From NCBI RefSeq assembly GCF_030684215.1, contig NZ_JAUXOV010000058.1:1-33452 (forward strand): a stretch of 33,452 bases of DNA. The letters run 5' to 3'. The notes under the pieces were generated by a model. It searched no databases. It saw nothing but the letters and a program-made list of their open reading frames with translations, and was not told where the DNA came from. Made by a program: the position numbers and the translations under genes. Within the stretch, counting starts at the first letter, position 1, and each line of letters opens with the position of its first letter. Origin of the DNA: Pseudotabrizicola sp. (lineage in GTDB: Bacteria > Pseudomonadota > Alphaproteobacteria > Rhodobacterales > Rhodobacteraceae). This document shows positions 6,764 to 33,452 of this stretch, piece after piece.

Positions 6764-6962
6764 CTAAACCTCCGCACGCCACATCCTGAATCGCCCCTGT
6801 CCAGTCACCTCGCGGATCAGCCCACGCGCCTCTATCCAAGCCAGGTTTCGCTGGACAGCCGCACGGCTGGCGCCGATCAGAGCCTCAGCAATCGGTGCAG
6901 AGACCAAGGGCCATTCGGTCAATGCAGCGCGCAAAGCTGGAGGCGTACGGCCGGACAACACC
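6764..6962 (-). pseudogene. C-terminal fragment of a DUF1612/HTH protein
   Basis: The reading frame ends with about 64 residues nearly matching the C-terminal helix-turn-helix of the intact gene at 28501-29496: LSGRTPPALRAALTEWP, then SRAAVQRNLAWIEARGLIR and EVTGQGRFRMW. Upstream of about 6962 the similarity stops and the remaining N-terminal residues look random. It is therefore a 5'-truncated relic rather than a small gene. The DNA differs from the intact copy at many third positions, so it is an old paralogue and not a recent duplication. Confidence 0.75.
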
Positions 6963-7977: not shown

Positions 7978-8548
7978 GGCCGCCCTCCTCTGGTGATGTG
8001 CCGCTGATTCACGCTTCAGGCGGCATTGACGTTGCCGTTGGGATCAACCCCCTTGATCCCGTAGCCTTATACACTGCCTTGCGTGACTTCCCGACGGGAA
8101 ACTGTGAACGTTGGCGTTTTTCGGAGGAATGCTTGGCGCAAGCCGTGGCGCGGTACGGGCTTCCTATTCGGCAACAGCGCGATCGCCACTGGCATCCGGT
8201 GGCAACACAGCTATATCGCTAGCGACAGTTTTCTGCATCGATCTCTCCTAATCCGCGAAGTTCCTCCCGCTGTGGCCAAGCGTTTGTCCCGAGGTGCGAT
8301 ATCCGAAGCTGCCGTACAGATCGCCAGTCGCAGCAACATCCATTCGGCGCATTTGAGCAGGTTTGGCCAGCACGCATCCGAGGGAAGCGGGACATGGTCG
8401 GTGAGCTTTCACAGGCAAAGCGGTTGTTATGTGCTTTGAGGACAGGTCAGATGCCCCAGACGGAGGCAAGATCGTCCCATGCCGGCGCTCTGAAGCTGTA
8501 GTTGTGACTGATGTCAGGACGCAGCCCACAGCCTCACTTGACGGCCCA
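7978..8548. other. gene-poor gap of 571 bases
   Basis: No reading frame here has a convincing ribosome site, family motif or coding-like composition. Short open frames exist on both strands but look like chance or decayed sequence. The methyltransferase promoter must lie at the left end. The rest follows the stop of the winged-helix/TPR regulator, so it may be debris of older genes. Confidence 0.4.
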
Positions 8549-11350: not shown

Positions 11351-12844
11351 ATGACAATGCAAGACACCAATTTCGCGGAAGAGACTCTGGATCCCTCCAA
11401 CTGGGATGCCACCCGGGCACTGGCCCACCGGATGGTCGACGACGCCATCGACCATCTGAACAGTGTGCGCGACCGACCCTTGTGGCAAGAGATGCCCTTG
11501 TCTGCCCGCGCGGGCTTTGACGGCCTGTTGCCGCAAGTGCCGCTGCCGCTGGACGAGGTCTATTCCGAGATCACCGCCCATCTGATGCCGCATCCGATGG
11601 GCAATATCCATCCACGATTCTGGATGTGGTACATGGGGGCCGGGAACTTCACCGGCGCGCTGGCCGATTTTCTGGCGGCAATCGACGGGTCGAACCTTGG
11701 CGGCGGCAATATGGCGGCAGGTTTGGTGGATCGACAGGTTACCGGCTGGATCCGCGACATGATGGGTTTTCCCGAAGGTGCCAGCGGCACGCTGGTGAAC
11801 GGCGGATCGATGGCAAATATCATCGGCCTGATGGCGGCCCGCAACGCCATGGCCGGCGTCGATCTGCGACAAGAGGGGGTGGACGCCATGCCGCAGTCCT
11901 TGCGGTTCTACGCCTCGGATCAGGTTCACAGCTGCCATTACAAGGCGATGAACCTGCTGGGCTTGGGGAAGAAATCCCTGTGCAAGATCCCATCAGACGA
12001 CGCCTTCCGCATGGATCTGGGCGCGCTGAAGACCCAAATCCGTGCAGACCGTGATCATGGCATCAAACCGGCTTGCGTGATCGCAACGGCAGGTACCACC
12101 AACACCGGATCGATCGATAATCTGTCCGCCATCGCCGACCTTTGCGCAGCGGAAGGGCTGTGGATGCATATCGATGGTTGTATCGGCGCGCTGATCGTTC
12201 TGGCACCCGAGCATCGCCATCTGGTCACGGGCATTGAACGCGCGGATTCCCTTGCCCTCGATCTGCACAAGGGGCTTCAGGCGCCCTTCGACGTGGGGTG
12301 CACGCTGGTGCGCGACCGCAGACAGCATCGGATCACCTTTGCCGAAGATGCTGAGTATCTGCAAAAGATGTCACGCGGCATCGCGGCGGCGGAATTCCTG
12401 CATGACTATAGCCTGGACACGACGCGCGGCTTTCGCGCGTTGAAGGTCTGGATGATGCTCAAGGAACAGGGGGCCCAGAAATTCGGGCGGCTGATCGATC
12501 AGGGAATCGCACAGGCGCAGTATCTGACGGGACTGATCGCGCTCCAACCGCTGCTGGAGCAGATGGCACCGACCGTGGTCGACATCGTCTGTTTTCGCTT
12601 CAATCCCGGCGGAATTGACGAAAGCGCGCTGCGCGCGTTGAACACCGAGATCATGCTGCGGATGCAGGAGACAGGTGTTGCCGCCGTCTCGGACACCACG
12701 GTGAAAGGGCGTCACTGCCTGCGTGTAGCGATCTGCAACCACCGGACCAGACGCACGGATCTAGACCTGTTGGTGCAAGAAGTTCTTCGGATCGGCAGCG
12801 AACTTGTGGCAACTTCGATTGCAACGACGTCAGGCAGTCGATGA
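11351..12844 (+). CDS. group II PLP-dependent amino acid decarboxylase
   Basis: This 497-residue enzyme is of the aromatic-L-amino-acid/glutamate/cysteine-sulfinate decarboxylase family (fold type I). The PLP Schiff-base lysine is Lys307 in LDLHKGLQAPF. MHIDGCIGA supplies the cofactor-binding Asp, and HPRFWMWYMG and TLVNGGSMANI are family landmarks near the substrate and phosphate sites. It should remove the alpha-carboxyl group of an amino acid, giving an amine. Specificity is not readable from sequence. Coupled to the upstream cysteine-synthase-like enzyme, cysteate, cysteine sulfinate or 2,3-diaminopropionate would be chemically sensible substrates; this is inference. A decayed second copy lies at 16575-17090, beyond the FAD-enzyme gene. 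Confidence 0.9.
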   Translation: MTMQDTNFAEETLDPSNWDATRALAHRMVDDAIDHLNSVRDRPLWQEMPLSARAGFDGLLPQVPLPLDEVYSEITAHLMPHPMGNIHPRFWMWYMGAGNFTGALADFLAAIDGSNLGGGNMAAGLVDRQVTGWIRDMMGFPEGASGTLVNGGSMANIIGLMAARNAMAGVDLRQEGVDAMPQSLRFYASDQVHSCHYKAMNLLGLGKKSLCKIPSDDAFRMDLGALKTQIRADRDHGIKPACVIATAGTTNTGSIDNLSAIADLCAAEGLWMHIDGCIGALIVLAPEHRHLVTGIERADSLALDLHKGLQAPFDVGCTLVRDRRQHRITFAEDAEYLQKMSRGIAAAEFLHDYSLDTTRGFRALKVWMMLKEQGAQKFGRLIDQGIAQAQYLTGLIALQPLLEQMAPTVVDIVCFRFNPGGIDESALRALNTEIMLRMQETGVAAVSDTTVKGRHCLRVAICNHRTRRTDLDLLVQEVLRIGSELVATSIATTSGSR

Positions 12845-16574: not shown

Positions 16575-17090
16575 GATGCCGATCTGTGCGCTGAGCAAGG
16601 GCTGTAGCTGCATGCCGATGGCAGCATCTGAAGATCTTCGCGGAAGATGCCGAGTACCTCCTAGAAAATGTCACTTGGCATTGCTGCGGCAGAGTTCCTG
16701 TGCTGTTACAATCTGGATAGAACACGGAGATTCCGGGCGCTCAAGATCTGGATGATGATCATGGCGCGTGGCCAAGTTCGGGCGGCTGATCGATCAGGGC
16801 ATCGCTGAGGTCCAGTATCGGATCAGGTTGATGGCGCATGAACCTGCCTTGGAGTTGTTGACCCCGAGTTGAACGACCTCGTGTGTTTTCGGTTCAATCC
16901 CGGTGTTCTCGATGAGGGGACGCCGCCAGCCCTCAACGTTGAGATCATGTTACAGCGCTCGGATGCGGGAATTGCAGCCGTGTCAGATAGCACCGTGAAG
17001 GACACCTCTGCCTGCGTGACACAATCTGCAAGGACTGGACAACGAGCAAAGACATCGACCTGCTGGAGGAAACAGTGTTGCGATTGAGTG
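16575..17090 (+). pseudogene. decayed second copy of the group II PLP decarboxylase
   Basis: Translated piecewise, this stretch matches the intact decarboxylase at 11351-12844: DADLCAEQGL, then FAEDAEYLLE, then FRALKIWMMI, FGRLIDQGIAEVQY, CFRFNPGVLDEGTPPALNVE and SDAGIAAVSDSTVKD. Stop codons, frameshifts and a deletion spanning the PLP lysine region interrupt it. The N-terminal half is missing. The similarity to the intact gene is moderate, so the duplication, or the import of a related cluster, is old. Confidence 0.85.
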
Positions 17091-27359: not shown

Positions 27360-27912
27360 TCAAAGCAGGTCGGCGAACTGCTCCAGGTCGGCAACCGTGG
27401 CGACCAGCCCTTGCTGCGTCAGGATCGCGAGATACTCGTCGACGCTTTTGGGCGGATTCTTGAGGCGCGCGCGAACTTTGCGGAGCGCGGAACAGACCAG
27501 ACCGGGCGCGAGAGACAGTTGGTTGCGGAAGAAGTCGTCAGGGTGCTGGGTCTCGATGCCGAAAGGCGAAAGTGTCTCAGGTGGGAAGTCCTTCAGGTTT
27601 TGAGTGACGATGGCGTCACAGCGCCCAACGATTGCGGCCGCCAGAACATGTCGATCGTCGGAGTCCGGCAGTGATAGGGCCGGCACCAATGCCGCGTAGC
27701 AGGTGACCAGGCAGTCGCGTGTTGCCCTGTCCATCAAGTCGCGAGTTCGTTCCAGCGCCGCCCGGTCCCGATGAGGTTCGTTGCGCAGAAGGGCGTCAAT
27801 CCATTCCCGATGGATGTCGGCCGTCCACTTGGCCTTGAAAAGGTCCGTGACCGCCAATTGTTGGAGCGGGACAAAGGACGTTCGCGTCGAACAGGACCGT
27901 GTACTGGCTCAT
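27360..27912 (-). pseudogene. PIN-domain toxin (VapC-like), broken by a deletion/frameshift
   Basis: The coding region begins at the ATG at 27912, which overlaps the antitoxin stop (ATGA). It reads MSQYTVLFDANVLCPAP and then falls out of frame. The family's intact protein continues with a short helix and QLAVTDLFKAKWTADIHREW. That part resumes in another frame, from the TTG at 27857 through to 27360 (165 residues). About 17-20 bases are therefore missing after the first beta strand. Asp9 (LFDAN), the first catalytic acid of the PIN nuclease, is separated from the rest (SDDRHVLAAAI). A nuclease made from 27857 alone would lack it and should be inactive. Confidence 0.85.
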
Positions 27913-28388
27913 TTCGAGCCGTAGCCCATGTCCTGCTCTTGAGCGTCGGCGGCTAGTTGGTCGAGCACCGCTTCACGCTCGTTGTCGATCGCGGCCTTGT
28001 AGGACATCACGTCCTCCATGCGGACGCGGCGATGCTTGCCTACCTTCCAATGCGGGATGCTTCCATTCTCGAGTAGTTTGATCAGGAACGGCCGCGAGAC
28101 GCTCAGGACCTCAGCTGCCTGCACTGTCGAGAGCTCTGCATTCTCGGGGATGATGGTGACCCCGCGCCCCGCTGCCATCGCCTCGAGGATTTCCATGAGC
28201 AGCGATACAGCGTCTGCAGGAAGCTCTATCGGCTCCATCTGCTCGGAGTCTGTCACGCGAAGCTTCAACGGCGCGCGCGCCCGGGCAAAGCGTGACAATG
28301 CCTGCCCAGAGACGCGTGCGATCGCTGCGTCCTGCGGGGTGGGCGGAAGGTGGTGGTCTCCTCTCCGTTTTCTGTTCTCTACCACCAT
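27909..28388 (-). CDS. excisionase-like antitoxin with HTH
   Basis: This 159-residue protein has a linker-type N-terminus. It continues MEPIELPADAVSLLMEILEA and GVTIIPENAELSTVQAAEVL, and then an excisionase/MerR-like HTH: SVSRPFLIKLLENGSIPHWK followed by VGKHRRVRMEDV. The HTH binds the operon's own DNA and the C-terminus (QEQDMGYGSK) binds the toxin in related pairs. Its stop overlaps the PIN start as ATGA. The antitoxin is intact even though the toxin is not. It is transcribed from an AT-rich region at 28389-28420. Confidence 0.88.
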   Translation of the reverse strand: MVVENRKRRGDHHLPPTPQDAAIARVSGQALSRFARARAPLKLRVTDSEQMEPIELPADAVSLLMEILEAMAAGRGVTIIPENAELSTVQAAEVLSVSRPFLIKLLENGSIPHWKVGKHRRVRMEDVMSYKAAIDNEREAVLDQLAADAQEQDMGYGSK

Positions 28389-28500: not shown

Positions 28501-29496
28501 TCAGTTCGCAGTGCACCACATTCTGAATCGCCCCTGTCCTGTCACCTCGCGGATCAGGCCGCGCGCTTCCAGCCATGCAAGGTTGCGCTGGACGGCGGCG
28601 CGGCTGGCGCCAGTCAGGGCCTCGGCCATCGGTGCAGAGACGAACGGCCATTCGGTCAGCACCGCGCGCAGAGCCGCGGGCGTCCTGCCCGAGAGCGATG
28701 CCATCTCGGCCACTGCCCGCGCCGACCATGCCTCGATATCGTCAAGCTGCCGCATCGCGGTCAGGCATGCCGTCTCCATCCCGTCGAGCCAACGCACAAG
28801 ACGGTCGGCGGGTGGGCCACCGGCGCGAAGACCCCCTGCCCCGCCCATTGCCAGAGGCGCGAAGACTGCTCCTCTCCCCTCGCTGGCAGCGATCCGCGCA
28901 GCTGTGACAGCCGCTTCCATCCGGTCGCCGTGCTGCCCGAGCCCCGCTAGGCCCCATAGGTGAAAGCCCATAGCGGCGCGGGTGATCGGGTGCAGGTCGG
29001 CGGCTTGCCCCATTAGATCCAGCCAACCGCTCGCACGATCCACGAACGGCTCGGTCACATCACCTAGGTTCTCGGGGTCGCGACGGTCGAGGAAGGCGGA
29101 CAGGTCCTGCTCCGGTCCCGGTCCACCCGTCAGCCGCCGCACGGCCCATCCGACCCGCGCCAGCGCGGCCGTGTCGTCCTGCACGCCGGACAGGCGCATG
29201 GAGATCCAGAGCGCCAGCCGATCTGGGCCAATGCGGTCACCCACAAACCAGCAGAGGTCTGCCGCTTCGATCAGGGCAAGCCTATGACGCCAGCCTTCCG
29301 GGCTGCGCTTCAGACGGTCGTCCAGAGCGCCGACGCGACCGGCCACAAGAGCAAGACGCGCGGCTTGACCGGCCTCTGCTTTCCGCCAATCGTCGAGGGC
29401 TTCGGCTTCGCGCGGTTCGGCCCGTGGTCCGGGCGGCAGGTAATCCGGCTCGTCGTCCATCGGACCGGGCAGGAACCAATGTCGCTTTTCCTTCAC
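28501..29496 (-). CDS. DUF1612/HTH (RHE_PE00001-type) DNA-binding protein
   Basis: This 331-residue protein has a central DUF1612-like region (ADLCWFVGDRIGPDRLALWI, then SGVQDDTAALARVGWAVRRL) and a C-terminal helix-turn-helix: SAPMAEALTGASRAAVQRNL, AWLEARGLI, then EVTGQGRFRMW. The family is found on plasmids and mobile elements of alphaproteobacteria, and its function is unknown. The start is a GTG (29494-29496) with a weak ribosome site. The next in-frame ATG is at 29460 (MDDEPDYLPPG). The gene begins 120 bp from tniA, divergently. The first six codons fall inside a repeat that may be the transposon end. Confidence 0.8.
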   Translation of the reverse strand: MKEKRHWFLPGPMDDEPDYLPPGPRAEPREAEALDDWRKAEAGQAARLALVAGRVGALDDRLKRSPEGWRHRLALIEAADLCWFVGDRIGPDRLALWISMRLSGVQDDTAALARVGWAVRRLTGGPGPEQDLSAFLDRRDPENLGDVTEPFVDRASGWLDLMGQAADLHPITRAAMGFHLWGLAGLGQHGDRMEAAVTAARIAASEGRGAVFAPLAMGGAGGLRAGGPPADRLVRWLDGMETACLTAMRQLDDIEAWSARAVAEMASLSGRTPAALRAVLTEWPFVSAPMAEALTGASRAAVQRNLAWLEARGLIREVTGQGRFRMWCTAN

Positions 29497-29573
29497 GATT
29501 TCACTGCATGGTTATGACGAGTTTTCAGGATGGTAGCGCCGGAATCGGCGCACTTTTCTGCTTTGCGATTTCA
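29480..29573 (+). repeat. candidate transposon end and TniA-binding repeats
   Basis: Two imperfect direct repeats lie upstream of tniA. The first is CTTTTC-CTTCA-CGATTTCA (29485-29503) and the second is CTTTTC-TGCTTTG-CGATTTCA (29553-29573). The first is preceded by TGTCG (29480-29484), a TGT start typical of Tn5053/Tn402/Tn7-type ends. Multiple transposase-binding repeats near an end are expected for TniA/TnsB-type transposases. No matching inverted end is seen on the far side of tniQ within the window. Confidence 0.45.
29536..29551. other. short hairpin in the tniA leader
   Basis: A perfect 6-bp stem GCGCCG/CGGCGC encloses a GAAT loop, between the two end repeats and 65 bp before the tniA start. 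It might be a regulatory site or a TniA-binding element. It is not followed by a U-run. Confidence 0.35.
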
Positions 29574-29615
29574 ATTTCAATTCGGACTTCAATAGGTTTC
29601 GAAGGGCACGGTGGC

Positions 29616-31277
29616 ATGACAGCGCTCAGCAAAGATCGGTCATTGGAACGGGCAGCTTACCGCGCTTCTGACGAGGTCTGGTCAAAGGCCGTTCGGATCG
29701 CTCGCGAACTTGACCGGGTTCTCGACGGCGACCTGCCAATGCGGGCGTCTGTCAGCCGGGCAGCGACAGAACTGCGCCTTTCGGCCCGGCAGGTCTACAA
29801 TCACCTCGCCCGGTATCGCGAGGAGCGTCGTGTCTCGTCGCTCCTGCCTCGGACGAATGGGGCGCGGCGTGCGAGGATATCGACCGGCGTTGAAGCCATC
29901 ATTTCCGAGACGTTGCGGGAGATGTGGCTGCAGCCGGAGCAACCCGACCTCGCGCCAATCGTCGACGAGATCCGCGCGCGCTGTGCCGGCCAAGGCTTCA
30001 AGCCCCCGGCCTATGTCACCGTGGCCAAGCGGATTCCGCTCATCTTCACTCCCGAGGAGATCGCGCGGCGGCGGCTTTCCGGTGGCAAACATTTTCACCG
30101 CCTGAAACCGCGTCCGGGATACATCCGTGCAGCACACGCCCTTGACGTCGTCCAGATCGATCACACACCGGCCGATATCCAGTTCGTCGAGGTGATCGAC
30201 GACCACGGCGTTTTCGTGGGCAGACCCTATCTGACCATCGCAGCCGATGTGGCGACCAGTGCAATCATCGGCTTTTGCCTCACCCTCGAGCGCCCTTCCC
30301 GACTCTCGGTGGCATTGTGCCTTGCGCACGCGATGTGCCGCAAGGATGACTGGCTGGCCGAACGCGGGATTGCGCATCCATGGGCGATGCATGGCCGCCC
30401 CAAGCAGATCGTCGTGGATTCCGCCAAGGAATTTCAGAGTAGCACGTTCACGACGGGATGCGCCGACTTCGGCATAACCGTCCGCACCCGGAACAAAGGA
30501 ACCGTTCACCGGGGTGGCGTTGTCGAACGGCTGCTGGGCAAGGTGAACACGGTGCTCAGATCCCTTCCCGGCAAGACCGGGCGGTCCATCGCGGACAGAG
30601 GAGATTATTCGTCCGACAAGCGGGCAAGTCTGACCTTCGCGGCCCTTGAGCTCTGCATCGCACTGGCAATCATCGATCACAACCAGACACAGAACGCACG
30701 CAAGCTGACCGTTCCAGCCATCGAATGGGAGTGGCGGCTTCCACCGACGGACCGGCCGATCGACGAGCCTGACCATGTCCTGCTCAACTTCTTACCTCGC
30801 AAGACGCGGCGGATCTCACCGCAAGGCGTCAGCCTGTTCGCCATGGACTACTTCGAACAGTGGCTTGGGCCGCTTGTCGCCCGCCGTGACCGCTTGGCAC
30901 CGTTGGATCTGTGCTATGACCCCCGGGACATCAGCCGGATCTATATTGCCGATCCCGACACGCGTGTCTGGCTCCCGGTCGGACGACGGGACGGCGTGAC
31001 GATGCCGCTCACCCTTTGGCAGCATGAAGCCGACCGAGCGCGCAAGCGTGAGAGCCAGCAGCGCCCCGTGCAGGACAAGACCATCCTGCGCCGGGAAATC
31101 GCGGCAACCGTCGCCGGGGCCAAATCCACGAAGGCCCAACTGCGGGAAATGGCCCGGGCCCGACACGCCGCAGACACGCCAAAGCCGTTTCACAGTGCCG
31201 GGCGCGTTTCAGAGGCGACTAATCCTGGACCGGCGCCTGACCGACCCCGCCGCGTCTTTCCCGTCGAGACCTGGTGA
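29616..31277 (+). CDS. tniA: TniA-like transposase (Tn5053/Tn402/Mu family DDE)
   Basis: This 553-residue transposase has an N-terminal HTH region (VSRAATELRLSARQVYNHLA) and an RNase-H-fold catalytic core. The DDE triad is Asp182 (VVQIDHTPAD), Asp268 (IVVDSAKEF) and Glu304 (GGVVERLLG). A Mu-type beta-barrel follows, with DLCYDPRDISRIYIAD and RVWLPV. It cuts and joins the transposon ends and works with the TniB ATPase and TniQ. I start at the ATG at 29616, because upstream codons lie in end-like repeats with no ribosome site. Its stop (31275-31277) is followed 1 base later by the tniB ATG. Confidence 0.93.
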   Translation: MTALSKDRSLERAAYRASDEVWSKAVRIARELDRVLDGDLPMRASVSRAATELRLSARQVYNHLARYREERRVSSLLPRTNGARRARISTGVEAIISETLREMWLQPEQPDLAPIVDEIRARCAGQGFKPPAYVTVAKRIPLIFTPEEIARRRLSGGKHFHRLKPRPGYIRAAHALDVVQIDHTPADIQFVEVIDDHGVFVGRPYLTIAADVATSAIIGFCLTLERPSRLSVALCLAHAMCRKDDWLAERGIAHPWAMHGRPKQIVVDSAKEFQSSTFTTGCADFGITVRTRNKGTVHRGGVVERLLGKVNTVLRSLPGKTGRSIADRGDYSSDKRASLTFAALELCIALAIIDHNQTQNARKLTVPAIEWEWRLPPTDRPIDEPDHVLLNFLPRKTRRISPQGVSLFAMDYFEQWLGPLVARRDRLAPLDLCYDPRDISRIYIADPDTRVWLPVGRRDGVTMPLTLWQHEADRARKRESQQRPVQDKTILRREIAATVAGAKSTKAQLREMARARHAADTPKPFHSAGRVSEATNPGPAPDRPRRVFPVETW

Positions 31278-31278
31278 C

Positions 31279-32160
31279 ATGGCCGACCATCTCCTGCCGA
31301 CAAGCTCAGCGCTTCTTGAGGCCGATACTGCCGCCCGCATCGCGCATGTCAGGGCGCCACGCTGGATTGGGCATCCGGTGGCCGTAACTGCGCATGACGC
31401 GATGCGACAACTGCTCGAGCGGCCGCCATCGCTGCGTCCACGCGGCTTACTGATTGCCGGTCCCTATCACAACGGCAAGACCATGATCGCCGAACGCTTT
31501 GCGATCGAACATCTGCGCCTCGCCGACCGACAAAAGGTGTGGGTGATCCAGACCCGGGAAGGTGCCGGCCTGTCGCATTTCTACGCCAGCATCTTGTCCG
31601 GACTGCGCGCCCCGCAGGCTGCCGGCTGGCGCAGCCTGTCCCGTGCCAGCGAACAGGTCGATCATCTCCTCGACAGCCTGAAGCCGCGGTTGCTGATCTT
31701 TGACGAGTTCCACAGCGCGTTGCGTGGGCGCAGGCAGGATGTGAAGGCGATCTTCTCGTTCTTGCGGCGGATCGCACGGGTGCATGACATCTCGCCCGTG
31801 CTTGTCGGCGAAATCGCCGTCTACGATGCGCTGCACGACACAGAAGAAATGGGATCACGATTTGATACGGTCCCGGTGCCGCGGTGGGGTTTCGACGAGG
31901 ATTTTGCAGCCCTTCTCGACAGTCTCGAGGCGAGCATTCCGCTTGCCCAGGCCTCTAACCTCTCGCGGTTGCCCCTTGCCAGAATGATCCATGATCTGTC
32001 GGAAGGGCTGATCGGAGAGGTGGTCGACATCGTCACCCGGGCGGCGGTTGCAGCTATTGAGAGCGGTGAGGAACGGATCACGTCCAGCACCGTCATGGCC
32101 CTCGGCTATGTGCCGCTGTCACGGCGACGGAACTCGGCCTTGCGCCATTCAATGACATGA
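31279..32160 (+). CDS. tniB: TniB-like AAA+ ATPase
   Basis: This 293-residue ATPase has Walker A GPYHNGKT (61-68), Walker B LLIFDEFHSA (138-147), and sensor regions near ISPVLVGEIAVYD and RWGFDEDFA. TniB/TnsC-type proteins form ATP-dependent filaments that link target choice to the transposase. It follows tniA by one base and its stop overlaps the tniQ start, so the three are one operon. Confidence 0.93.
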   Translation: MADHLLPTSSALLEADTAARIAHVRAPRWIGHPVAVTAHDAMRQLLERPPSLRPRGLLIAGPYHNGKTMIAERFAIEHLRLADRQKVWVIQTREGAGLSHFYASILSGLRAPQAAGWRSLSRASEQVDHLLDSLKPRLLIFDEFHSALRGRRQDVKAIFSFLRRIARVHDISPVLVGEIAVYDALHDTEEMGSRFDTVPVPRWGFDEDFAALLDSLEASIPLAQASNLSRLPLARMIHDLSEGLIGEVVDIVTRAAVAAIESGEERITSSTVMALGYVPLSRRRNSALRHSMT

Positions 32161-33188
32161 CCAGCAAGGCGCCGAGCATCACCGTCTCCCCGGCCCGCCG
32201 CTATAGAGTGGCGGCGGGACATCGCTGGCCGGTGGAGGTCAGGCCAGCTCCAGGCGAGCTTTTGTCAAGCTGGCTGCATCGGCTTGCGCATGCCAACGGT
32301 GTGCCGCCGCGTTACTTCGGAGCAGTGCTCGGTGCGGCCGGCGAGACATGGTCGGCACAACTTGACAGGCATCTGCCGGATGCTGTTCGTCGCTTGCTGC
32401 TCGACCATACGTCGATCTGCCCCGAAGAGATCGACGGTCTTTGTCTGGCCTACAGTGCACTCTCGACCCTGCGCTTGCGGCTGCGTTCCCGGCCGCAAGA
32501 TGCAGGGACATCGACGGCGCAGTCCTGTTGGCTGCAGTTCTGTCCCACCTGCCTGCGGGAAGACGAGGTGCCCTATTTCCGGCGCAGCTGGACCTTGGCA
32601 ACCCGCGTGTCCTGCTTTCGCCATGGCTGCCGGCTGCGCGACCGCTGCCCGTCTTGTGGTCAGGGCCTTGCGCCGTTCAGGCGGGATCGCCTTGTGCCAC
32701 AGCAGTACTGCGCCTACTGCGACGCTTCTCTCGCCAAACCGACGGACCCGGTAAACTCAGGCGCCCGGCGCCTCGAGCGGCTGATCGACGATCTGCTTCG
32801 CCTTGACTCAGCTGGGCGCGCGCATGACGACCGGAAGTCCCTCGCCGAGAGGCTTGCGAGATGCCTGGTGCCTGTTGGTCCGAAGACATCAACGATCCCG
32901 CATCTGTCGCAGCGGGTTCGCCACGATTTCTTACGACGGCTGTCCGAGCGGCAGATCGAGGCGAGAGACCCCACAGAACGCTGCCCGCTGAACCTCTGGG
33001 ACCGGCTTGCCAATGCCGCTGGAAACCACAACGGGCTGGTCAAGGCGCTCACGGATCAGCTTGCTGAAACTGCCGGCTTGCAGCGAACCACCTGCAGTAG
33101 AACCCCTGATCTAGCCGCCTTGCTGCGGGCCGCAACCCGGCTTCATGAAGACTGCCGATCTCCTGTCGAAGCCCTAGCTGCCTCTTAA
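32157..33188 (+). CDS. tniQ: TniQ-family target-selection protein
   Basis: This 343-residue TniQ protein opens with the family's PAPGELLSSWLHRLAHANGV, which keeps the helical core. It then carries zinc-binding pairs: FCPTCLRED, SCFRHGCRLRDRCPSCG and QYCAYC. TniQ/TnsD-type proteins bind DNA and direct insertion. The C-terminal part (about 200-343) is less conserved and may decide the target. The ATG overlaps the tniB stop. The stop (33186-33188) overlaps the convergent ScpB-like gene's stop (33185-33187), leaving no room for a transposon end, res site or tniR resolvase. Confidence 0.92.
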   Translation: MTSKAPSITVSPARRYRVAAGHRWPVEVRPAPGELLSSWLHRLAHANGVPPRYFGAVLGAAGETWSAQLDRHLPDAVRRLLLDHTSICPEEIDGLCLAYSALSTLRLRLRSRPQDAGTSTAQSCWLQFCPTCLREDEVPYFRRSWTLATRVSCFRHGCRLRDRCPSCGQGLAPFRRDRLVPQQYCAYCDASLAKPTDPVNSGARRLERLIDDLLRLDSAGRAHDDRKSLAERLARCLVPVGPKTSTIPHLSQRVRHDFLRRLSERQIEARDPTERCPLNLWDRLANAAGNHNGLVKALTDQLAETAGLQRTTCSRTPDLAALLRAATRLHEDCRSPVEALAAS

Positions 33189-33452
33189 ATGTCCAGTGCC
33201 TCCGACGGGCCCGCCAAGCCGGCATCTGCGAGTTGCTCGGGATCGGGCAGGTCGCGCAAGGACTCCATCCCGAAGACGGCCAGAAAGGTATCCATGGTGA
33301 CGAATGTATAGGGCGCGCCGCGGCGAGGCTCCCGCGGGCCGGTCCCGATCAGGTCTCGGTCCGCCAGCCGCCCGATCAGGTCACGGCTGATCTCTTTCCC
33401 GAAAATCTCCTTCAACCCGTCACGGCTGATCGGTTGGTGAAAGGCGATCGCC
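33185..33452 (-). CDS. ScpB-like protein, 3' part (runs off the window)
   Basis: The visible 88 codons, open at the window edge, read AIAFHQPISRDGLKEIFGKE, then ISRDLIGRLADRDLIGTGPR, RGAPYTFVTMDTFLAVFG and MESLRDLP. This is the second winged-helix of ScpB-family proteins (R-G-x-P-xx-Y-x-T/V-T-xx-F-x-x-x-F-G-x-x-SLRDLP). Chromosomal ScpB is the kleisin-binding subunit of SMC-ScpAB. This version, with 'FGKEISRDLIGRL' repeating the preceding motif, belongs to the plasmid-type copies that usually lack a linked scpA. Its role may be DNA binding or regulation rather than condensation. Its stop overlaps the tniQ stop. Confidence 0.85.
   Translation of the reverse strand, partial: AIAFHQPISRDGLKEIFGKEISRDLIGRLADRDLIGTGPREPRRGAPYTFVTMDTFLAVFGMESLRDLPDPEQLADAGLAGPSEALDI

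Follow-up and report, generated by a model that had tools for sequence, protein, structure and literature searches.

A Tn402/Tn5053-like transposon that probably carries a captured plasmid-type Xer-like resolution module in Pseudotabrizicola sp.

THE TRANSPOSON AND ITS EXTENT

The window analyzed here is a whole assembly contig of 33,452 bases from Pseudotabrizicola sp. (contig C37 of an 81-contig genome), and it ends inside a Tn402/Tn5053-like transposon of ~6.5 kb, the left end of which lies at position 29480. The left terminal inverted repeat, TGTCGCTTTTCCTTCACGATTTCA (29480–29503), agrees at 20 of 24 bases with the right end of the Gemmobacter fulvus copies described below. It is followed on the plus strand by tniA, encoding a DDE transposase (29616–31277; Mu-transpos_C, 5e-12), tniB, encoding an AAA+ ATPase (31279–32160; PF05621, 1e-43), and tniQ (32157–33188; PF06527, 6e-24). 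On the minus strand stand the C-terminal 88 codons of a ScpB-like gene (33185–33452; PF04079, 2e-12), which is cut by the contig end at base 33452. To the left of the element, also on the minus strand, lies the gene of a helix-turn-helix (HTH) protein (28501–29496; HTH_13, RHE_PE00001-like). This is a target gene outside the element; its 5' end was cut by the insertion, and its open reading frame now starts within the left end of the transposon, as an in-frame fusion. All five genes are where the initial annotation had placed them, with tniABQ between the two minus-strand genes, although the tniQ and ScpB reading frames overlap by 4 bases and not by 3.

The complete element is seen on the G. 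fulvus plasmids p4 and p5, which have exactly 6,547 identical bases in common and different flanks. The common stretch begins with TGTCGCTTTTCCTTCACGATTTCA and finishes with the inverse of TGTCGCGTTTGGTTCCCGATTTCA, the inverted ends matching at 20 of 24 bases, and it includes the genes for ScpB, a DUF1403 protein and a tyrosine recombinase (YR). On plasmids of G. fulvus, Actibacterium, Pseudosulfitobacter and Roseovarius, the gene order is tniA, tniB and tniQ on the plus strand, ScpB and DUF1403 on the minus strand, and YR on the plus strand. The Roseovarius ScpB gene is unannotated, tblastn recovering it as two pieces; DUF1403 and YR of the Actibacterium copy are separated by a nested Tn3-family transposon. 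Of the five plasmid copies opened, four have the minus-strand HTH gene left of tniA, G. fulvus p4 being without it. The proposed lack of tniR holds on these plasmids: no tniR or other serine resolvase gene is annotated in the 6.5-kb element of four of them, and the fifth has one only with a nested Tn3-family insertion.

Sought beyond the window, the right end was found after YR in relatives, 2.8–2.9 kb beyond tniQ in 13 copies, and also after YR in contig C46 of the source genome. C46 holds a complete second copy (33544–40102), its DNA being ~72% identical, and a genome-wide search by the end motif for the missing right half of the window copy gave a match only there. Contig C57 of the same genome carries the left part of an element (91%) and, separately, a decayed YR–DUF1403–ScpB stretch (30304–32742; locus L010) with no tniABQ beside it, in which DUF1403 is truncated and the palindrome described below has a spacer of 5 instead of 7 bases. 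One contig of another record (L023) is the element exactly, end to end, which is what the collapse of a repeat during assembly would produce.

CONSERVATION OF THE ELEMENT

A scan of contigs gave 46 loci, and pooling these with the plasmid and own-genome copies yielded 58 tniA copies. The set includes two double-counted records (L048/L125 and L054/L137), and counts may be 1–2 too high. The convergence of tniQ and ScpB extends well beyond this genome: in the 46 copies where both stops are readable, the distance between them is −4 in 18, +16 in 20, +15 in 3 and another value in 5. ScpB follows tniQ in 41 of the 42 copies with 900 bases of room and lies inside the mapped ends, in agreement with the earlier proposal that it is an integral part of the element. 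DUF1403 comes next in 36 of 36 copies with 2,000 bases of room, and YR is within reach in 28 of 32 copies with 3,000 bases. Five copies (L034, L054, L062, L064 and L065) are broken by other insertions or deletions.

The only copy in which ScpB was missed is L136 (G023:C77), a tniABQ relative with ~70% identity in TniA. It adjoins an HTH gene and shows no ScpB in the 992 bases between its tniQ match and the end of its contig; it may show what the element looked like before the module was captured, or it may be rearranged. A more distant relative, L067 (57% identity in TniA), has other genes after tniQ, and its right end was not mapped.

A PALINDROME BETWEEN DUF1403 AND YR

Between DUF1403 and YR lies a palindrome, GTCC(A/G)ATAA-7-TTATCGGAC. 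With at most two substitutions, it occurs upstream of 70 of the 77 DUF1403 genes that have at least 200 bases of room, a set that includes the elements themselves and a few repeated records. The match is exact in 54, and a single distance of 78 bases to DUF1403 recurs in 60; within these 78 bp, CGGCGCTT is nearly invariant. The 1.8 Mb of fetched sequence contained one other match, L146, which is upstream of an annotated DUF1403 gene, and the source genome has the exact pattern nowhere but at the DUF1403/YR loci of C46 and C57.

The palindrome is also where copies of the element cease to resemble each other. Comparison of the 47 copies in which YR is adjacent gave 27 pairs with likeness confined to one side, 17 of them to the YR side and 10 to the DUF1403 side; the break points lie at most 20 bp from the palindrome centre in 26 of these 27 pairs, which have copies in common and are not independent. 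In a scan of 24 aligned elements, divided into ~60 bins of 100 bp as estimated from the length, 70 of 112 sharp switches in identity fell in the two that contain the palindrome. An initial histogram of change points over all pairs was uninformative, the YR side being simply less conserved, and was replaced by the stricter thresholds used here. These switches appear to be the trace left in the sequences by site-specific recombination, in which copies of the element would swap YR halves at the palindrome.

THE TARGET SITE

The HTH gene adjoins the left end in 36 of the 47 copies with 600 bases upstream of tniA and is absent there in 11. Within the 36, L045 retains only a C-terminal HTH fragment and L060 a 47% N-terminal match. 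No HTH gene was found at the YR end among the copies checked. At empty sites (L071–L074), a 355-codon HTH gene faces a serine recombinase gene, which in L071 is a tblastn match with no annotated gene. Two other HTH-gene records were opened: L070 starts at the gene, and L075 holds a distant relative, with no such recombinase found. Most insertions hit one of several different bases in a ~20-bp stretch of the 5' region of the HTH gene. The initial annotation, which named this gene DUF1612, had allowed that it might mark the insertion site, and the empty sites and clustered insertions agree with this; the same empty sites, the position of the gene outside the left end and its absence beside 11 of the 47 copies speak against the further claim that it is locked to the element.

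On the other side of the element, 17 right ends were examined, and 7 of them (L008, L020, L039, L042, L044, L045 and L046) are followed at 315–322 bp by the start of a serine recombinase gene. Deviant positions are seen in L035 (at 990), L036 (at 30), L052 (at the start codon) and L053 (truncated). Among 16 copies with both flanks, exact 5-bp duplications are present in 5, namely ACCAC in L020, L029 and L038, CCACA in L044 and ACAGG in L039, and L042 has a 6-bp duplication. In the window, the five target bases that directly precede the left end, ACCAA (29475–29479), occupy the position homologous to the ACCAC duplications, and no duplication partner is seen in the contig. In G. fulvus, p4 has on its left the same flanking bases (GCCGG) as p5 has on its right, and the other two flanks of the pair differ; such a match is expected if the insertions exchanged halves. 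Judged by where it inserts, the element appears to behave like a res-site hunter, directed at a predicted res site of the serine recombinase.

PROTEINS OF THE MODULE AND OF THE TARGET

YR belongs to PF00589 (1e-14), and its best named relatives are XerC and XerD, to whose NCBIfam equivalog models it scores 57.6 and 50.5 bits against cut-offs of 335 and 330 bits, respectively. The catalytic motifs are kept in 47–48 of 48 proteins. The ScpB protein (PF04079, 5e-32) matches solved ScpB chains by sequence. The plasmid ScpB proteins form a distinct subfamily beside a second ScpB of ~35–41% identity, which we take as chromosomal.

The DUF1612 label cannot be kept in the strict sense, as Pfam DUF1612 matched neither the HTH protein of the window (E ≤ 0.01) nor two full-length relatives (E ≤ 1). 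What the HTH protein does match is a C-terminal HTH_13 and HVO_A0261_N, at or under the cut-offs, and RHE_PE00001 below threshold, HTH proteins scoring 22–24 bits against a curated cut-off of 250. The DUF1403 proteins share the weak C-terminal HTH_13 match. Comparison of deeper profiles of DUF1403 and the HTH protein gave a probability of 88 and an E value of 3.5e-6 over 244 columns, and that of shallow profiles a probability of 25. The top fold matches of low-confidence models of both proteins (pLDDT 56 for DUF1403 and 51 for the HTH protein) were SoFic-type Fic proteins, with best E values of 0.035 and 0.005, neither of them significant alone. The motif HxFx(D/E)GN is present in none of 61 DUF1403 and 43 HTH proteins. 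To judge from these models and profiles, the two proteins seem to be related to each other and to Fic proteins, but without the Fic motif. We also considered DUF1403 as a ScpA-like kleisin and found no support; the fold search led to Fic proteins, and the comparison of DUF1403 with the ScpB profile gave nothing.

It therefore looks as if, in both kinds of resolution module, the recombinase gene (YR or serine) has a gene of one and the same HTH superfamily opposite it on the far side of the site. Because of this arrangement, we take DUF1403 and the HTH protein as candidate site-linked regulators or accessory factors. Fic genes adjoin HTH or DUF1403 genes at four loci (L016, 10744–11946; L074, 9005–10207; L075, 6815–7945; L144, 4086–4697), and the three that were aligned carry the motif HPFxDGNGR.

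THE MODULE WITHOUT THE TRANSPOSON

Of 149 genomes of the order, 34 encode DUF1403 (31 above the family cut-off), and only 4 have a tniA of the element family (at least 67% identity). We opened 32 DUF1403 places from this survey, one of which (L125) is a copy of the element itself. ScpB adjoins DUF1403 in all 32, and YR faces DUF1403 in 21; among these 21, two have Tn402-like genes in between, and in L123 YR is 4.4 kb away. In seven further plasmid ScpB contexts (Ruegeria, Bradyrhizobium, Sinorhizobium, Nitrobacter, Ketogulonicigenium, Agrobacterium and Methylocystis), DUF1403 stands directly before ScpB in every case. Five of these are from Hyphomicrobiales, the order of rhizobia; the initial annotation had named DUF1612 as the partner of ScpB on rhizobial plasmids, a pairing not seen in the contexts opened. 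A tblastn search of plasmids gave a match to this ScpB in 720 of 72,556 records, a number that may include ScpB copies of the chromosomal type on large replicons. No ScpA or SMC gene is annotated in the plasmid modules opened, and in several records the modules lie near repABC-type genes. Since many plasmids of Alphaproteobacteria have ScpB–DUF1403–YR without this tniA, the module most likely existed on plasmids first and was taken up by the transposon, where it replaces res-tniR.

Other mobile elements also adjoin DUF1403 or the palindrome. In the Sinorhizobium, Nitrobacter and Methylocystis contexts, other tniAB or tniABQ genes lie just ahead of DUF1403, and in several copies foreign Tn402-like elements with a TniA of ~32–35% identity adjoin DUF1403 on the palindrome side. 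Counted from the palindrome centre towards YR, a TGTCG end begins at 42 or 43 bp in L038, L040, L048 (= L125), L058 and L143, and a different end (TGTCGGA) begins at 57–70 bp in L036, L058, L111 and L142. A fixed distance from a recombination site is expected of res hunters, and the foreign elements apparently hunt the predicted site of the tyrosine recombinase in this manner. On other plasmids, VapBC-type or Fic genes stand between YR and DUF1403 (L141, 4098–4759; L143, 96–736; L144, 4086–4894), and by their position the gap seems also to gather toxin–antitoxin-like modules.

DISCUSSION

With its ends, target duplications, target site, conserved module, palindrome and allele exchange all read from the sequences, the element is best explained, and in our judgment with good probability, as a replicative Tn402/Tn5053-like res-site hunter carrying a captured plasmid-type Xer-like resolution module. 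According to this reading, TniA, TniB and TniQ would insert the element in one orientation into a resolution region where a serine resolvase gene faces the HTH gene, choosing the site of that resolvase. YR would then act on the dif-like palindrome between its own gene and DUF1403, thereby resolving the cointegrates, and in the free-standing modules it would probably resolve plasmid multimers. The paired genes next to the palindrome, ScpB and DUF1403, may encode accessory DNA-binding proteins that regulate YR or direct it topologically. Accessory proteins of this kind, ArgR and PepA, give direction to Xer at plasmid sites, and it is by analogy with them that we propose the role.

Several observations weigh against this explanation. 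For the copy in the window, the assembly has no right part. Seven of the 77 DUF1403 genes have no palindrome, and 42 of the 112 sharp switches fall elsewhere in the element; ordinary recombination therefore happens too. YR was seen in only 21 of the 32 modules of the order survey, some contigs being too short. Ten of the 17 right ends have no serine recombinase up to 1,500 bases away or up to the contig end, or have it at another distance, and a matching duplication is missing from 10 of the 16 copies for which both flanks are available. Exchange of halves at the palindrome, or deletion, would explain the missing duplications; the GCCGG flank common to p4 and p5 is an indirect sign of it.

A broader proposal, which we put forward tentatively and would not rate as high as even, is that YR, palindrome, DUF1403 and ScpB constitute a widespread alphaproteobacterial plasmid resolution system. 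In such a system, ScpB (a kite protein) and a dead Fic-like DNA-binding protein would control an Xer-type recombinase, perhaps by recruiting the host SMC to the site, coupling recombination to replicon segregation; one transposon would have captured the system, and others would hunt it.

Among the alternatives, the one that survives best, though we consider it doubtful, is that the ScpB–DUF1403 pair serves partition or compaction of the plasmid by bringing the host SMC to it, with YR as a separate neighbour. The match of ScpB to solved ScpB structures, the proximity of modules to repABC-type genes and the 11 of 32 opened modules in which YR was not found would all fit this idea. However, no ScpA or SMC gene is annotated beside the modules, the fixed 78-base distance in 60 of 77 cases ties the pair to the recombination site, and YR does face DUF1403 in the other 21 modules. 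Also improbable, in our estimate, is that ScpB–DUF1403–YR is passive cargo unneeded for transposition: the distant relative L067, with its other genes after tniQ, would allow it, while the near-universal retention of ScpB and DUF1403 and the allele exchange at the palindrome argue otherwise.

A reading that follows the initial annotation is that the element ends at or near ScpB, which would serve as a target-selection or stability factor replacing the resolvase. The near-constant presence of ScpB after tniQ is what this suggestion had in its favour, and we now regard it as very unlikely. The mapped ends reject ScpB as the last gene, the right inverted repeat lying beyond YR; DUF1403 follows ScpB wherever 2 kb can be read; ScpB–DUF1403–YR is found without this tni; and L136, with no ScpB in its 992 readable bases, still adjoins an HTH gene, against a targeting role. 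The place of the resolvase module is taken instead by YR and its palindromic site. That the HTH gene forms a larger mobile unit with tniABQ, as its frequent adjacency and the start of its reading frame inside the left end in many copies might suggest, is hardly credible and was rejected, given that p4 and C57, where it is missing, have their break exactly at TGTCGC, that its variation does not follow that of tni (82% protein identity for the pair L019 and L020, against 99.8–100% for TniA, TniB and TniQ) and that it stands alone beside a serine recombinase at empty sites.

The end of the element away from tniA is the one that we take to correspond to IRo. Members of the Tn5053/Tn402 family are described as making 5-bp repeats and replicative cointegrates and as inserting in a preferred orientation, with IRo nearest the resolvase gene (PMC7765201). 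The present element resembles them in its tniA-tniB-tniQ order, TGTC-type inverted ends and 5-bp duplications, and apparently in being placed next to a serine resolvase gene with a constant orientation, the end away from tniA being nearest. It differs in having the palindrome, YR, DUF1403 and ScpB instead of tniR and res, and its TniA is ~32% identical to tniA proteins of enterobacterial plasmids, taken as Tn402-type.

Tyrosine resolvases in Tn5053-clade elements are already known in kind. Benler et al. state that such elements can have tyrosine resolvases and predict that the TnsA-less branches resolve cointegrates by this means (PMC8649781). The Tn7-like clade 3 elements of that study are likewise Tn5053-related with a tyrosine resolvase; unlike the present element, they are described with no ScpB or DUF1403 in the relevant section and no ScpB or SMC in the main text, and the passages on them give no site or target (PMC8649781).

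The likeness to XerCD-dif and to plasmid Xer systems consists in the nearest models of YR, XerC and XerD, and in a dif-like core palindrome whose arms end in ATAA and TTAT. The system differs in having one recombinase per module, linked to DUF1403 and ScpB, and scores far under the cut-offs. With SMC–ScpAB the module shares a ScpB family protein, whereas the plasmid modules opened have no annotated ScpA or SMC gene, a role in which the host SMC could serve. DUF1403 and the HTH protein have in common with SoFic-type Fic proteins the top fold match, from low-confidence models, and a C-terminal HTH, and differ from them in the missing HxFx(D/E)GN motif.

In the literature searched, which leaves most subscription papers outside its coverage, we found no mention of DUF1403 and no match for a plasmid ScpB together with a tyrosine recombinase. 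Among tniQ, ScpB, DUF1403, DUF1612 and RHE_PE00001, the only joint mention found was of DUF1612 with RHE_PE00001, in a source on R. etli. Within that literature, the widespread plasmid module YR–site–DUF1403–ScpB is apparently undescribed. Its placement beside an Xer-like recombinase and a specific DNA site offers an explanation for the plasmid ScpB genes, a common and puzzling annotation. Elements of the Tn402 type would gain a second solution to resolution, and res hunting would be extended by the other Tn402-like ends at a fixed 42–43 bp from the palindrome. If it is true that ScpB steers the recombinase, the link between an SMC-type protein and dimer resolution becomes testable on small plasmids.

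OTHER FEATURES OF THE WINDOW

Further upstream in the window, genes encoding an excisionase-type HTH protein and a PIN-domain protein come after the HTH target gene (27360–28388), as they do in Phaeobacter gallaeciensis (L069, 9113–10143); they are possibly a toxin–antitoxin pair of the target plasmid module. Solitary C-terminal fragments of the same DUF1612-like HTH gene, 80–84% alike in protein, are found at 6773–6958 in the window and at 8393–8671 in L016. Both come directly after a histidine-kinase-type gene, and they are perhaps remnants of lost resolution modules. Two stretches of ~450 bases in the window (12323–12773 and 16622–17066) are 69% alike.

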